Below the pieces are notes generated by a model, which saw only the letters and a list, made by a program, of their open reading frames with translations, searched no databases and was not told where the DNA came from. A program made the translations under genes and the position numbers. Below, one piece after another: positions 14,627 to 18,681 of a stretch of 38,698 nucleotides of DNA; positions within the stretch are counted from its first letter, which is position 1, and the number at the start of each line of letters is the position of its first letter. This DNA is from Bacillota bacterium. GTDB taxonomy: Bacteria; Bacillota; Negativicutes; Sporomusales; CTSoil-080. The DNA lies in NCBI GenBank assembly GCA_017889625.1, contig JAGGAD010000044.1, positions 1 to 38,698 on the forward strand, read 5' to 3'.

Positions 14627-14658
14627 AAAAAAAAGAAGTTCGCCTAATGGCAACCTCC
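14627..14658 (-). terminator. Terminator of the cwlD-amr operon
   Basis: On the minus strand GGAGGTTGCC pairs with GGCGAACTTC around an ATTA loop, with one bulged G and two G-T pairs, and is followed by eight T (14634-14627). It begins 22 nt after the amrS stop and lies upstream of the arginine operon promoter. Confidence 0.75.
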
Positions 14659-14680: not shown

Positions 14681-15691
14681 TTATTTAAATACTGGTTTTC
14701 CGGCAAGTTTAATATTTTTCCCACAGCCAGAACATTGATTTTCTTCGGTCAAATAGCTACGCAAGCATTGCCGATCAATTACTAATTTGCCACATCCAGG
14801 ACAATAAGTATTCCCATTACCTTCGACATTTCCCAAATAGACGTAGTTTAATTTCTGGCGTGCAACCCGATAAGCCGCCTCTAACGTAGTTACTGGAGTC
14901 GGCGGATTGGTCATTTTATAGTTGGGGAAGTAACGGGAAAAGTGCAGCGGTATATCCTTATTAAGTTCAGCCAACCATTTCGTCAGCGCCGCTAGTTCTT
15001 CCAGATCATCATTACCTCCAGGTACTACCAGACAGGTTACTTCAACATGAGCTAAGTTTATTGCAAGTTCAACGGTCTTTTTTACATCGCTTAACTGTCC
15101 ACCGCAAATGTTGCGGTAATAGTCATCATTAAAGGCTTTAACATCAATGTTTACAGCATCAATAAATGGCAGTAATTCTAGTAGCGGCTCTTTATTAATA
15201 AAGCCGTTGGTTATCAATACATTTTTCAGTCCTTCTGCCTTTAGAAGTTTAGCAGTAGCTAACACATATTCATACCATACACTTGGCTCAGAATAAGTAT
15301 ATGCTAAGCCAATATTACGGTTATCAATCTTAGTCGCTTTTACCGCTTTACTGGTTGCCTCGCGTGGCGACATTTCAACTGTTTCCGGTGTTTTCTGAGC
15401 TATATGCCAATTTTGGCAAAATTGACATGTAAAGTTGCATCCCCAACTACCCAACGACAAAATATAACTTCCCGGATAAAAATGATATAGTGGCTTTTTC
15501 TCTATTGGATCTAACGAACAGGCCGTACAGGAACCATAATTATTTGCATAAAGCACTCCCGCCGTATTGGAACGAACCCGACAAAACCCGTTTTTCCCTT
15601 CATTAATTATACATTCCCGGGGACAAAGTTGACAGACTACACCACACTGTTCATGTTGTCTAAAATAAGCCGCCTGCTGCAACGATGCCAC
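14681..15691 (-). CDS. amrS: Radical SAM protein of the AmmeMemoRadiSam trio (AmrS)
   Basis: 336 residues. The radical SAM cluster ligands are Cys85, Cys89 and Cys92 in GCNFTCQFCQNWH. An N-terminal cysteine group (Cys20, 23, 27, 37) resembles the PflA-like activase extension of this family, and the C-terminus carries a CPGC...CSGC zinc-ribbon-like pair. The reaction is not known to me. The GTG at 15691 overlaps the only ribosome-binding sequence (AGAGGTGG), so a TTG at 15682, 6 nt behind that sequence, may be the real start. It lies 2 nt after amrA and ends the operon. Confidence 0.88.
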   Translation of the reverse strand: MASLQQAAYFRQHEQCGVVCQLCPRECIINEGKNGFCRVRSNTAGVLYANNYGSCTACSLDPIEKKPLYHFYPGSYILSLGSWGCNFTCQFCQNWHIAQKTPETVEMSPREATSKAVKATKIDNRNIGLAYTYSEPSVWYEYVLATAKLLKAEGLKNVLITNGFINKEPLLELLPFIDAVNIDVKAFNDDYYRNICGGQLSDVKKTVELAINLAHVEVTCLVVPGGNDDLEELAALTKWLAELNKDIPLHFSRYFPNYKMTNPPTPVTTLEAAYRVARQKLNYVYLGNVEGNGNTYCPGCGKLVIDRQCLRSYLTEENQCSGCGKNIKLAGKPVFK

Positions 15692-15693
15692 CT

Positions 15694-16218
15694 CTATTTA
15701 TACCTTGTAACTATAAAACGATATAGTTCTATCTTTTCATCCTGGCCAATTCCGGCCTTTTGTCTGGCTATTGCCACTTGTTCTTCCACACTATCCACGC
15801 CTTCTAAATCCGGTAGCAACAGTCCCGAACGCCGACCACACCGCACAATTACTCCATAGTCTTTGGGGTTAAGTTCTTCAACCGAATCTATCCGTTCCGG
15901 CTGTCCTAAAATGTCCACCCAAATAGTTAACCCGTCTATCTCATCTCGCTTTACCGGACTAAATCGCGGATCGCTAGTCGCAGCGTTAACTGCATTTTGA
16001 ATAATTTCTTTCGCTGTTGTTGCCTGAGTTGGCTGGATCGTACCAATGCAGCCACGCAGACGCCCCTGTTTTTTTAAGGAAACGAACACTCCGGCTGGAG
16101 GTGTAAGTACCGCATCATCCACAGCCGCAGCTGACAAAAGTTCGCCTTTTGCCAGGTAGTATTCCAGACTTTCTCTGGCAAGTGCTACCGGTATACTTTC
16201 ATTTTGCACTGTCATCAT
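15694..16218 (-). CDS. amrA: AMMECR1-domain protein (AmrA)
   Basis: 174 residues covering a single AMMECR1 domain; the family signature GRLRGCIGTIQPT is near residue 52-64 and SDPRFSPV near 91-98. The human homologue AMMECR1 is linked to a developmental disorder, but no biochemical activity is established for the bacterial members as far as I know. Two ATGs lie at 16218 and 16215, overlapping the end of amrB by about 20 nt, which suggests coupling. Together with amrB and amrS it forms the conserved AMMECR1/MEMO/radical SAM set. Confidence 0.9.
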   Translation of the reverse strand: MMTVQNESIPVALARESLEYYLAKGELLSAAAVDDAVLTPPAGVFVSLKKQGRLRGCIGTIQPTQATTAKEIIQNAVNAATSDPRFSPVKRDEIDGLTIWVDILGQPERIDSVEELNPKDYGVIVRCGRRSGLLLPDLEGVDSVEEQVAIARQKAGIGQDEKIELYRFIVTRYK

Positions 16219-17044
16219 CCTTTTTCATTGTGCACAGTACTACCCCGTACCCAACCCCAAATGGCCCTTCATAAGAAAGCACTTTGGTATCAACCTTTAG
16301 CTCTCCCATAACGCCCATTAAAAATACGGTTGGTCTTAATCCACATTCTCCGGCTTCCGCCACTAATTTTTTATCAATATTTATGACACCTTTAGTGTCT
16401 AATGAGGCCAATTTTTCTAAAAGCAGCCGGTCAAATTCGGCTCCCCGTGGACTATAGCCTGCCGGAGCATTTGGTGCCAGCCGATGCGAAAGATCCCCGG
16501 AGGCAATCACCGCAACCTTTTTGTTAACTAACCCTATAGCTGCTTGTACAGCTTTACCAAAGGTATACATTTCTTCATACGGCAACATGCCAACAGATAT
16601 ATGAACCAGCTGTCCTCGAAAACCAGCCTGTTGTAAGTAATACAACGGTACCATTGCCCCATGATCAAGTTCAAGGGCAAAACGGTACGTTTTAGCTACT
16701 TCATCGGTTATTTCTATAACATTTACGCCTAACCGCTCAGCCTTATGTAGAATCTGTTTTAGTAACTGTCTGTCAGTTTCATAACCCAATACCACATCTG
16801 GTGCTCCAAAAGCAGCAAAGTTTCCTTTAAGCCGTGGATATACACTCAATCCTATTGCATCCTTAAATACCGGTCCATGCGGCGACATTAAAACTACAGT
16901 CTGAGCTTTTGCATCTTTCACGGCTTGTGCTACTTGCTGGGTCGCTACGATAGTCGCTTGAACTTTTTTACAATCGTTTTTTCCGACTTCAGGCACCATA
17001 ATTGGCGGATGCGGCAACAGCGCACAAGCCACCAAGTGTTTCAC
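16199..17044 (-). CDS. amrB: MEMO-family class III extradiol dioxygenase-like protein (AmrB)
   Basis: 281 residues with the fold family of class III extradiol dioxygenases. Conserved metal-site histidines are visible in LLPHPPI (His12), MSPHGPVF (His56) and ELDHGAMVPL (His128), and a further motif GDLSHRLAP has His187. Human MEMO1 shares these positions and binds metal. No substrate is known for the bacterial protein. The ATG lies 20 nt after the cwlD stop; the 3' end overlaps amrA. Family assignment is firm, function is open. Confidence 0.9.
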   Translation of the reverse strand: MKHLVACALLPHPPIMVPEVGKNDCKKVQATIVATQQVAQAVKDAKAQTVVLMSPHGPVFKDAIGLSVYPRLKGNFAAFGAPDVVLGYETDRQLLKQILHKAERLGVNVIEITDEVAKTYRFALELDHGAMVPLYYLQQAGFRGQLVHISVGMLPYEEMYTFGKAVQAAIGLVNKKVAVIASGDLSHRLAPNAPAGYSPRGAEFDRLLLEKLASLDTKGVINIDKKLVAEAGECGLRPTVFLMGVMGELKVDTKVLSYEGPFGVGYGVVLCTMKKDDDSAK

Positions 17045-17064
17045 TTAATCACTCCTCTCAGCAG

Positions 17065-17784
17065 TTATCTTGCCACACTGTGGCAAAAATGATACGCAAG
17101 TGCTTTGACAATATGTTCAGCCATTTGGGTTTGGTAGCCATCATCAGCTAATAGATTCGCTTCATGCGAATTGGTCAAAAATCCTGCCTCAACTAATACC
17201 CCCGGCAAGTTAGAGTTCTTCAACACCAGGATATTTAAATCCTTTCTAGATTGACGTTTATTACCTGGCGAAAAATTTTTTAAAGATTGTTGCATGGTTT
17301 CACCCAGTTCTTGGTTTTCAGCAAGTTTTGGGTTATAGTACACCTCGGCACCAAACCACTCTTTGCCACGAATAGCATTAGTATGTATACTGACAAAAGC
17401 CTCTGCTCCTGAATTATTAATTATCTCGACTCGTTTTAATAGATCTTTGCGCTTACCACCTTTCCCCCTCGTATAATAATCTATATCACTGTCTCTCGTA
17501 AATATAACAGTCGCGCCATTATTTTCTAGTATTTTGCCAATCTTTATTGCCAAGGCCAATGTTATGTCTTTCTCCAAAAATCCATTACCTTGTGCTCCGC
17601 TATCAATTCCGCCATGACCCGGATCAAGAACAATTATCCGGCCTGACAGTATCGACAAATCAGCAGCTTCAATATCTTTTAAATTTGGGATGTTTTGCGA
17701 CCATAACTGAGTAATGACCACTGCGATTAGACTAATAGCTACAACTATTCTTACGCTTTTCCCTCTAAGATTCTTTATCCGCAT
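17065..17784 (-). CDS. cwlD: N-acetylmuramoyl-L-alanine amidase, CwlD type
   Basis: Zinc amidase (amidase_3) that removes the peptide from muramic acid. In spore formers CwlD, together with PdaA, makes the muramic-delta-lactam of the cortex. 239 residues, the CwlD length. There is an N-terminal membrane anchor at about 11-28, then zinc ligands His57 (DPGHGG), Glu71 and His134 (SIHTNA), and catalytic Glu199 (VLVEAGF). No cell-wall-binding domain is present, which separates it from autolysins. The gene heads an apparent operon with amrB, amrA and amrS and diverges from a GT51 gene. In Bacillus, cwlD also lies downstream of rpsI. Confidence 0.87.
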   Translation of the reverse strand: MRIKNLRGKSVRIVVAISLIAVVITQLWSQNIPNLKDIEAADLSILSGRIIVLDPGHGGIDSGAQGNGFLEKDITLALAIKIGKILENNGATVIFTRDSDIDYYTRGKGGKRKDLLKRVEIINNSGAEAFVSIHTNAIRGKEWFGAEVYYNPKLAENQELGETMQQSLKNFSPGNKRQSRKDLNILVLKNSNLPGVLVEAGFLTNSHEANLLADDGYQTQMAEHIVKALAYHFCHSVAR

Positions 17785-17875
17785 TTTTATATCCCCCTAG
17801 CTGTTTTCACAACAACCATATGCCGGACATTATGCAGTTATGTCGTAAATAGTCACTACTTATCTAGTCATTTAA

Positions 17876-17928: not shown

Positions 17929-18681
17929 ATGCGGCTGGGCAAGATTTGGCTTGTTCTAATAATTATTTTCTTCATCGCTTTCTATTGGGCCAACGGCAAT
18001 AACGTTACGCCAGTTTCAATTACAAAACCAGCAATAAGTTTTGATAATGCAACGCTTTTCCACCGCCTGTATCGGGTCATTGCCTTAAAAGAAGAGGTAC
18101 ATAGCAAAGTAAGTAAACTTAATTACACTCAAATGAAAGACATTCCTCTTTCATTACAGCAATCGATAATTGCAGTAGAAGATAATCGGTTTTACCGCCA
18201 TTATGGGTTTGACATTGAAGGTATTATCCGAGCGACACTGGTTAATATCCAAAGCGGGGAATTACAAGAGGGTGGCAGTACAATCACACAGCAATTAGTC
18301 AAGAATCTTTTTCTTACCCATGAACGAACTTGGGTAAGAAAAATTGAGGAAGTAGTTTTGGCTATTGATATGGAGGCACGTTACTCTAAAGAGGAAATTC
18401 TTGAGCTTTACCTTAATACTATTTATTTTGGCTCAGGGGCCACCGGGATTGCTGACGCAGCCGACATTTATTTTGGCAAAACGCCGGCTCAGCTAAACCT
18501 GGCTGAAAGCTCACTTCTTGCTGGTCTCCCCAATGCCCCGTCACTGTACTCACCCTATGTTGACTACAGCGCCGCCAAGCAGCGCCAAGCGATAGTTCTA
18601 TCCGTCTTGGTTAAGTACGGTTATATCGGTCCTACAGCCGCTGAGGAAGCCAAAACAGCGCACCTCCACTTTGCCAAGTAA
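17929..18681 (+). CDS. Monofunctional peptidoglycan glycosyltransferase (GT51)
   Basis: The only clear plus-strand gene. 250 residues: a cytoplasmic start, one membrane helix (about 5-22) and a GT51 transglycosylase domain that polymerises lipid II into glycan strands. Motifs are EDNRFYRHYG with catalytic Glu84, GGSTITQQLVKN at 116-127 and RKIEEVVLAI with the second acidic pair (Glu140-Glu141), followed by YLNTIYFGSGATGI. There is no transpeptidase domain, so it is a monofunctional enzyme of the MtgA/SgtB type. AGGAGG lies 5 nt before the ATG. It is flanked by cwlD (divergent) and rpsI (convergent). Confidence 0.93.
   Translation: MRLGKIWLVLIIIFFIAFYWANGNNVTPVSITKPAISFDNATLFHRLYRVIALKEEVHSKVSKLNYTQMKDIPLSLQQSIIAVEDNRFYRHYGFDIEGIIRATLVNIQSGELQEGGSTITQQLVKNLFLTHERTWVRKIEEVVLAIDMEARYSKEEILELYLNTIYFGSGATGIADAADIYFGKTPAQLNLAESSLLAGLPNAPSLYSPYVDYSAAKQRQAIVLSVLVKYGYIGPTAAEEAKTAHLHFAK

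Follow-up and report, generated by a model that had tools for sequence, protein, structure and literature searches.

A cwlD-amrB-amrA-amrS gene cluster behind a putative sigma-E promoter, and AmrB proteins kept without AmrA and AmrS

Gene content and layout of the cwlD locus

The window, by which we mean the whole stretch of 38,698 nucleotides analyzed here, contains a compact run of four genes that is headed by the cortex amidase gene cwlD and continues with the amrB-amrA-amrS trio (Table 1). In the window ORFs amrB starts 20 nt after cwlD, amrB and amrA overlap by 20 nt, and amrS follows amrA after 2 nt, in agreement to the base with a preliminary description of this DNA. That description also placed a single terminator at the end of the run, and we found it behind amrS as a hairpin, whose 5' arm of 10 bases pairs with a single bulge, followed by a U run. 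With an energy of -14.4 kcal/mol (z -2.46), the predicted terminator looks real. A plain consensus scan returned three terminator-like sites, fewer than in shuffled sequences (mean 4.7). The scan recovered the amrS terminator solely as a 5-pair version, and its sole site within the cwlD-amrS run was a weak 5-pair hairpin (15683-15669) in the first amrS codons. Gene order and spacing thus support the operon-like arrangement that had been proposed for cwlD and the trio.

Table 1. Features of the cwlD-amr locus and its surroundings in the window
Feature	Position	Strand	Description and matches
mtgA-like gene	17929..18681	+	monofunctional transglycosylase, divergent neighbor; PF00912; conserved in class locus (synteny)
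Putative sigma-E-type promoter of cwlD	17815..17841	-	ATA (17841-17839), 16-nt spacer, CATATGGT (17822-17815)
cwlD	17065..17784	-	N-acetylmuramoyl-L-alanine amidase (spore cortex), 239 aa; TIGR02883 best match; Amidase_3
amrB	16199..17044	-	MEMO/LigB-fold protein, 281 aa, GTG start; TIGR04336, PF02900, PF01875
amrA	15694..16218	-	AMMECR1 family, 174 aa; TIGR04335, PF01871
amrS	14681..15691	-	radical SAM enzyme, 336 aa; TIGR04337, PF04055
Predicted intrinsic terminator behind amrS	14627..14658	-	hairpin and U run

CwlD scored 186.9 bits against TIGR02883, its best family nonetheless, where the curated cut-off is 221.55 bits; this cut-off was reached in 0 of 150 genomes of the window's class, so it may not suit the class. 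AmrA (TIGR04335, 134.2 bits, cut-off 99; PF01871, 154) carries the motif L-R-G-C-I-G-T at residues 54-60, which was invariant in 36 aligned class AmrAs. AmrS (TIGR04337, 304.7 bits, cut-off 220) matched PF04055 with a radical SAM CxxxCxxC motif at C85-C89-C92, and its closest solved structure by sequence was pyruvate formate-lyase activating enzyme.

AmrB scored 41 against TIGR04336 (cut-off 26), 154.5 against LigB PF02900 and 29.4 against Memo PF01875 (cut-off 27), and its AlphaFold2 model (pLDDT 95.4) matched PDB entries of the MEMO/LigB fold. Candidate metal-site residues are H12, H56 and C234, together with E233, and H128, D184 and H187 lie nearby. Alignment of AmrBs revealed conservation of H12, H56 and C234. 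In contrast, Gln, Thr or Met replaced E233, the LigB-type Glu, in 13 of 152 AmrBs, and the adjoining Cys was replaced in none. We tentatively take C234, rather than E233, to be the counterpart of MEMO1 C244 through the Cys-Gly motif. Relative to a description of AmrB as a plain two-His-one-Glu protein, the conservation table shifts the weight to the neighboring Cys. In this protein, earlier labeled a dioxygenase-like MEMO protein, the LigB score exceeds the Memo score, but an invariant Cys stands beside the LigB-type Glu.

The cwlD promoter and the cwlD-amrB linkage

The CATA of the putative cwlD promoter starts 38 nt before the start codon, and the geometry is that given for sigma-E, ATA-N16-CATATATA, in PMC3789822. 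We searched cwlD upstream regions from 40 of the 51 CwlD genomes of the class. ATA-N16-CATA was found in 24 of the 40, the window included, and in 10 of 15 families; the exact motif was missing from the other 16. Shuffled controls gave a mean of 0.81 and a maximum of 4, and other spacers 1-3 of 40. Across 47 loci used for comparison with other class genes, the motif preceded amrB in 0/45 cases, argC in 3/44 and five further genes in 0-1. Outside the class it was found before cwlD in 11/40 compared with 2/47 and 2/65 before amrB(A), counts in which rows were not de-duplicated. As controls, spoIIIAA (sigma-E) yielded N15 in 17/30 and N16 in 11/30 of its 30 best loci, and SASP genes (sigma-G, negative control) N16 in 0/30 of theirs; spoIVA was a weak sigma-E control (N16 1/20, N15 6/20 within 180 nt). 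By motif, then, a conserved candidate sigma-E promoter lies near the cwlD start codon. Sigma-E control of cwlD in B. subtilis and C. difficile is described in PMC517825 and PMC3789822. The conserved motif makes transcription of the trio in the mother cell likely, which lends sequence-based support to the sporulation-time expression proposed earlier.

AmrB was encoded directly downstream of CwlD on the same strand in 48 of the 51 CwlD-bearing class genomes, and no AmrB match was present in the remaining three. The gap, measured from leftmost start codons, had a median of 31 nt, and 42 of 44 loci had gaps of 150 nt or less. In the rest of the phylum, both genes were among the matches listed for 101 genomes; 76 of these had them within 10 kb, and in 71 of the 76 the listed cwlD lay upstream on the same strand. 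This profile survey covered 146 of 148 AmrB genomes, 45 of the 146 having no listed CwlD-family match. A single-sequence CwlD search was run on 51 non-class loci with 6 kb or more of upstream sequence, a set in which the closest AmrB matches are over-represented; it identified cwlD upstream in 18 of them. Outside the class, genes between cwlD and amrB(A) included those for cysteine desulfurase, ThiI and methylated-DNA methyltransferase, among others, and no usable theme was found among them. The neighbor survey suggested in the preliminary description revealed an old linkage that extends well beyond close relatives and is far beyond chance.

Ancestral synteny could account for this by inertia alone, with cwlD and amr sharing a transcript for no functional reason inside an old rplM-rpsI-cwlD-amr-arg block. 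We take this reading seriously while holding it to be somewhat improbable. It fits the finding that rplM, rpsI and arg genes flank most linked class loci whose fetched sequence extends far enough, and that arg genes follow in some other Bacillota. It also fits the six non-sporulating genomes in which the trio holds its position although cwlD is missing, and the 33 of 51 named non-class loci in which no cwlD was found upstream. Inertia explains less readily why class CwlD and AmrB are adjacent whenever both are present (48/48) and why their spacing is operon-like; in addition, cwlD occurred without nearby rpsI in 7 of the 51 non-class loci versus 4 with rpsI and no cwlD, a small difference.

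CwlD itself is restricted to spore formers in the class, as all 51 CwlD genomes have SpoIVA or SASP and none of the 95 other genomes has CwlD. A dedicated sporulation role of the trio is not supported, because amrB-amrA-amrS is kept in place in the six cwlD-less non-sporulators and five sporulators (G001, G004, G006, G025 and G051) lack both AmrB and AMMECR1. The idea that the trio serves solely in sporulation or the spore envelope draws on the sigma-E-type promoter, the linkage to a cortex amidase and the larger share of sporulators with AmrS above cut-off (42/55 versus 47/95 others). Those 47 non-sporulators nevertheless carry AmrS, and AmrB-family matches also occur in Thermotoga, in Thermus and in three control genomes from archaea. 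This distribution largely refutes a dedicated role, which we regard as very improbable.

AmrB proteins without AmrA and AmrS

In loci that encode AmrA, H12, H56, D184, H187 and C234 were all kept in 152 of 152 full-length AmrBs (7 duplicate loci were dropped, and the partial rows L079 and L230 were removed from 154). The set was intact in 0 of 8 full-length cwlD-linked AmrBs without AmrA in the locus. Since the set is broken in all eight cases without AmrA and in none of the 152 with it, the AmrB active site seems tied to AmrA/AmrS. Six of the eight lone AmrBs (four Pelosinus-type, two from genus g22) kept H12, H56 and C234 and carried N or E in place of D184, a second-shell Asp; those of G018 and G017 had lost C234 and H187 as well. 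A tree with seven of the eight forced at least three label changes and placed the G017 protein on a very long branch. AmrB without AmrA and with an altered site was also identified in five cwlD-less non-sporulators, where almost all active-site residues were lost.

The broken residue set in every lone case seen and the long G017 branch would be expected of relics that are being lost and are carried along by cwlD. However, the lone reading frames are open (261-296 aa), and dN/dS between cwlD-linked lone AmrBs was 0.058-0.113 at dS up to 0.73, similar to the 0.074-0.107 of intact AmrB pairs. These values cover two groups with six of the eight proteins, G018 and G017 having no sibling for the comparison. 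In the two groups measured, dN/dS indicates that AmrB is under purifying selection where amrA and amrS are gone, and we consider decay quite unlikely. In the Pelosinus-type genomes the loss was clean, with the gene that stands behind amrS in intact relatives now directly behind amrB. A 169-aa gene after amrB in Pelosinus was rejected as a decayed amrA; it encodes a tRNA-editing-domain protein.

Lone AmrBs could instead still be metal enzymes, with a chemistry so altered that AmrA and AmrS are no longer required. Purifying selection, and the retention of H12, H56 and C234 beside the D184 change in six of eight, agree with this. Human MEMO1 D189N, the equivalent of a D184 change, still binds iron according to PMC11081632, so the six D184-changed proteins may still hold metal. 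The additional loss of C234 and H187 in G018 and G017, and of almost all residues in the non-sporulators, argues against altered metal chemistry, and we think it unlikely.

We favor a joint reading of one transcription unit, one radical enzyme system and a second AmrB role, with the chances for and against it evenly balanced. The four genes would be transcribed as a single unit from the sigma-E (mother-cell) promoter before cwlD. AmrB, with its MEMO/LigB fold and candidate His-His-Cys/Glu metal site, would act with AmrA and AmrS as one system. In it, AmrS would reduce SAM and initiate a radical step, either on a complex of AmrB with AmrA or at it, and the AmrB active site would take part in this step. 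This reaction would be a general anaerobic one, and spore formers would additionally express the trio in the mother cell. AmrB may also have a second job, independent of AmrA, AmrS and an unchanged active site, with which it would survive behind cwlD after loss of amrA and amrS. This job is not clearly tied to spores, because lone AmrB persists in the five cwlD-less non-sporulators. The sequences themselves show the linkage, the promoter motif, that the trio does not depend on sporulation, and that AmrB active-site residues go together with the presence of AmrA; from these we infer co-transcription, the complex, the chemistry and the second AmrB role. A more specific version is tentative and rather doubtful: AmrB would have two separable jobs, one catalytic solely with AmrA and AmrS and one non-catalytic (pseudoenzyme), the latter retained on its own behind cwlD, within the sigma-E mother-cell program, on three or more occasions.

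Meaning and comparison with known systems

MEMO1 and AMMECR1 relatives range from archaea to humans, and we know of no solved reaction for them or for AmmeMemoRadiSam. Linkage to cwlD offers a regulated, testable bacterial setting for these proteins. The natural losses of amrA and amrS point out which AmrB residues are part of the reaction that the three proteins share, and the retention of lone AmrB suggests that the protein matters beyond it. If the split into two jobs were true, it might explain the conservation of human MEMO1 without a known reaction. Among the papers listed in our literature search, none was found on a cwlD-AMMECR1 linkage; a survey of MEMO-type families, reportedly that of Burroughs 2019 and cited in PMC7159879, lay outside this search.

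Compared with AmmeMemoRadiSam (TIGR04335/TIGR04336/TIGR04337), all three proteins here score above the curated cut-offs and their genes are adjacent. The locus differs in that cwlD, preceded by a sigma-E-type promoter, stands at its head and in encoding AmrB and AmrA unfused, whereas they form a single fused polypeptide in most other Bacillota seen. Compared with the sigma-E regulon gene cwlD of B. subtilis and C. difficile, the promoter geometry matches, but in the window cwlD is succeeded within 20 nt by three more genes.

A further close counterpart is human MEMO1 with AMMECR1. AmrB has the fold of MEMO1 (3bcz, 7kq8; VIA-align Z 21.0-21.4) and shares with it two His and an invariant Cys-Gly, with a His and an Asp nearby; identity is about 16-17%, and AmrB has a Glu before the Cys. 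To our knowledge, humans have no radical SAM partner of the AmrS kind. The host lineage is anaerobic, so oxygen chemistry by AmrB is unlikely. Class III extradiol dioxygenases (LigB, DesB, aminophenol and homoprotocatechuate enzymes) share the fold at Z 24.9-28.7, and the PF02900 match and the Glu at the LigB ligand position also link AmrB to them; in AmrB, however, it is this Glu that is replaced in 13 of 152 proteins and the adjoining Cys that never is.

Linkage of cwlD with the amr genes

Gene coordinates in the window matched the three spacings reported for this run in the preliminary description (20 nt between cwlD and amrB, an overlap of about 20 nt between amrB and amrA, and 2 nt before amrS), and the terminator said to end it was found 3' of amrS. 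A strong terminator closes rpsI upstream of cwlD, so cwlD probably lies outside the ribosomal unit. CwlD scored below the NCBI cut-off in all 150 Negativicutes genomes examined as well.

Gene run and upstream motif in the window
Feature	Position	Strand	Basis
cwlD	17065-17784	minus	best family match CwlD, 186.9 bits (NCBI cut-off 221.55)
amrB	16199-17044	minus	named by family scores
amrA	15694-16218	minus	named by family scores
amrS	14681-15691	minus	named by family scores
ATA-N16-CATA motif of cwlD	17841-17815

The 150 class genomes were searched for AmrS, SpoIVA, AmrB, CwlD, SpoIIIAA and SASP; genomes with SpoIVA or SASP were defined as spore formers (55 of 150), and CwlD was called above 240 bits on our own profile, all other scores being 196 or less save one partial second copy at 224.5. 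Conservation of the cwlD-amrB adjacency, for which the preliminary description had proposed a survey, was borne out within and beyond the class. CwlD was present in 51 class genomes, every one a spore former, with AmrB directly downstream in 48 (in G095 the contig ends inside AmrB); a genome-wide search of the other three (G001, G004, G006) found no AmrB. The spacing was operon-like, with a gap of 150 nt or less in 42 of 44 measured loci and a median of 31 nt. Locus order in the class was rplM-rpsI, divergent mtgA, cwlD, amrB, amrA, amrS and, at variable distance, argC-argJ. AmrB and AmrA were separate in most linked loci; fused AmrB-AmrA was seen downstream of cwlD in L063 (7844-9253), L085 (5374-6747) and L101 (6961-8355).

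Among the matches listed outside the class, 146 phylum genomes carried AmrB, mostly fused to AmrA, and 101 of these also had a CwlD-family match. The pair lay on one contig in 84/101 and within 10 kb in 76/101, a closeness for which we estimate a chance expectation of roughly 1% in a 2-3 Mb genome; cwlD was upstream on the same strand in 71 of these 76 listed pairs and divergent in 5. A second non-class sample, named loci selected as best AmrB matches, gave a lower rate (18 of 51 loci with enough sequence). In five genomes of one family (G307, G278, G160, G331, G244) cwlD and amrB are transcribed away from each other, their matches 306-389 nt apart, and the two may have a common regulatory region. 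The spore former G012 carries amrB-amrA-amrS (L106, 6879-9110) with no CwlD above paralog level, reflecting either gene loss or an assembly gap. In L079 (8026-8782), from the sibling draft genome G119 of the same genus, amrB occupies two frames and argC is also split, probably through assembly errors.

A sigma-E-type motif upstream of cwlD

Upstream of cwlD, 24 of the 40 class regions examined carry the motif ATA-N16-CATA, and it is represented in 10 of 15 families; the window's region is one of the 24. Other nearby spacers occurred in 1-3 of the 40 regions, and dinucleotide shuffles yielded a mean of 0.81 matches (maximum 4). Across all fetched loci the motif preceded cwlD in 24/47 compared with amrB 0/45, argC 3/44, rplM 1/37, mtgA 1/52, amrS 0/40, argJ 0/43 and a gene we take to be truA 0/28. 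As class controls, the sigma-E gene spoIIIAA gave 17 matches at N15 and 11 at N16 among its best 30 loci, and the sigma-G SASP genes gave none at N16 in their best 30; spoIVA displayed the motif poorly (N16 1/20, N15 6/20). Outside the class, in rows that include possible duplicates, it was found upstream of cwlD in 11/40 (other spacers 1-4) and upstream of amrB(A) in 2/47 and 2/65.

This geometry is that of published sigma-E promoters: according to PMC3789822 and PMC517825, one promoter mapped in C. difficile has the sequence ATA-N16-CATATATA, the -35 element ATA is common to sigma-E promoters, and cwlD is under sigma-E control in C. difficile and B. subtilis. Taken together, the motif counts and this geometry suggest that cwlD is read in the mother cell, very probably along with the genes following within 20 nt, in line with the expression during sporulation suggested initially. 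A further conserved element, TTTGGCTATACTT, perhaps the divergent mtgA promoter, was noted by eye in the mtgA-cwlD intergenic region (e.g. L093, L094, L095); many class genomes have it, at a variable distance ahead of the cwlD promoter.

AmrB outside sporulation and without AmrA

The trio is not a spore-only system, and its distribution does not support an exclusive sporulation role. Six genomes (G016, G022, G010, G028, G038, G046) lack SpoIVA, SASP and CwlD, with at most weak, sub-cut-off SpoIIIAA matches, yet keep amrB-amrA-amrS between mtgA and the arg genes; a search before amrB in these six found no ATA-N16-CATA. AmrS exceeded the cut-off in 47 of 95 class non-sporulators. Conversely, neither AmrB nor AMMECR1 was found in five genomes with sporulation genes (G001, G004, G006, G025, G051), some of whose assemblies are incomplete (84-97%).

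Six genomes carry cwlD-amrB with no AMMECR1 match anywhere (G024, G056, G036, G066, G018, G017), and in two others (G009, G027) a lone amrB lies downstream of cwlD while a fused AmrB-AmrA with AmrS is found elsewhere. In Pelosinus-type genomes amrB is followed by the tRNA-editing-domain gene found behind amrS in intact relatives, so the loss of amrA and amrS there was clean. In an AmrB tree that took in seven lone AmrBs (G066 omitted), four changes are required to place them, and well-supported branches force at least three of the four.

Seven site residues were compared (H12, H56, H128, D184, H187, E233, C234). After de-duplication, 152/152 full-length AmrBs that have AmrA in their locus kept all of H12, H56, D184, H187 and C234, as did 12/12 unfused AmrBs picked outside the class, where AmrA and AmrS adjoin. 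The complete five were found in 0/8 full-length cwlD-linked AmrBs without AmrA in the locus: D184 was N or E in seven, G018 kept D184 and lacked H187 and C234, and G017 had lost all five. The partial AmrBs of G071 and G095 also depart from the set. Metal binding may persist in the six of eight that retain H12, H56 and C234. dN/dS among lone AmrBs was 0.058-0.113 in the two measurable groups. On a plain reading of these sequences, the full site would be selected only for a reaction shared with AmrA and AmrS, and AmrB also for something else.

That second role being spore-specific is argued against by five non-sporulators without AMMECR1 (G055, G144, G108, G104, G116), which also hold diverged lone AmrBs, none with an intact site and with dN/dS of 0.05-0.21 in the four computable pairs. 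At least in G144, the lone amrB adjoins a transglycosylase gene in divergent orientation, which matches the ancestral position. At the non-sporulator loci L275, L276, L282, L283 and L277 the lone AmrBs have diverged and lack the site residues; in L276 the gene is flanked by argG-argH on one side and a divergent transglycosylase gene on the other. What merits testing here is the proposed separation of AmrB's roles.

Comparison with known systems

The nearest characterised proteins to AmrS are pyruvate formate-lyase activases, and the AmrA loop LRGCIGT is invariant; AmrS would perform a radical step on an AmrB-AmrA complex. The AmrB structure model (pLDDT 95.4) most resembled TK2203 (Z 33.6), followed by aminophenol and homoprotocatechuate dioxygenases (Z about 28), DesB (26.7), LigAB (24.9) and MEMO1 (21.0-21.4). 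A dioxygenase reaction with oxygen is unlikely because the hosts are anaerobes. According to PMC11081632, MEMO1 binds iron through H49, H81 and C244, the LigB counterparts being H12, H61 and E242. Whereas the third ligand is Cys in MEMO1 and Glu in LigB, AmrB has the two side by side, with the Cys kept in 152/152 and the neighbouring Glu in 139/152 AmrBs with AmrA in the locus. The cwlD-amr linkage is real and of long standing, and a sporulation-type promoter precedes it; as a system the trio is already known, and what is new is its regulatory setting.
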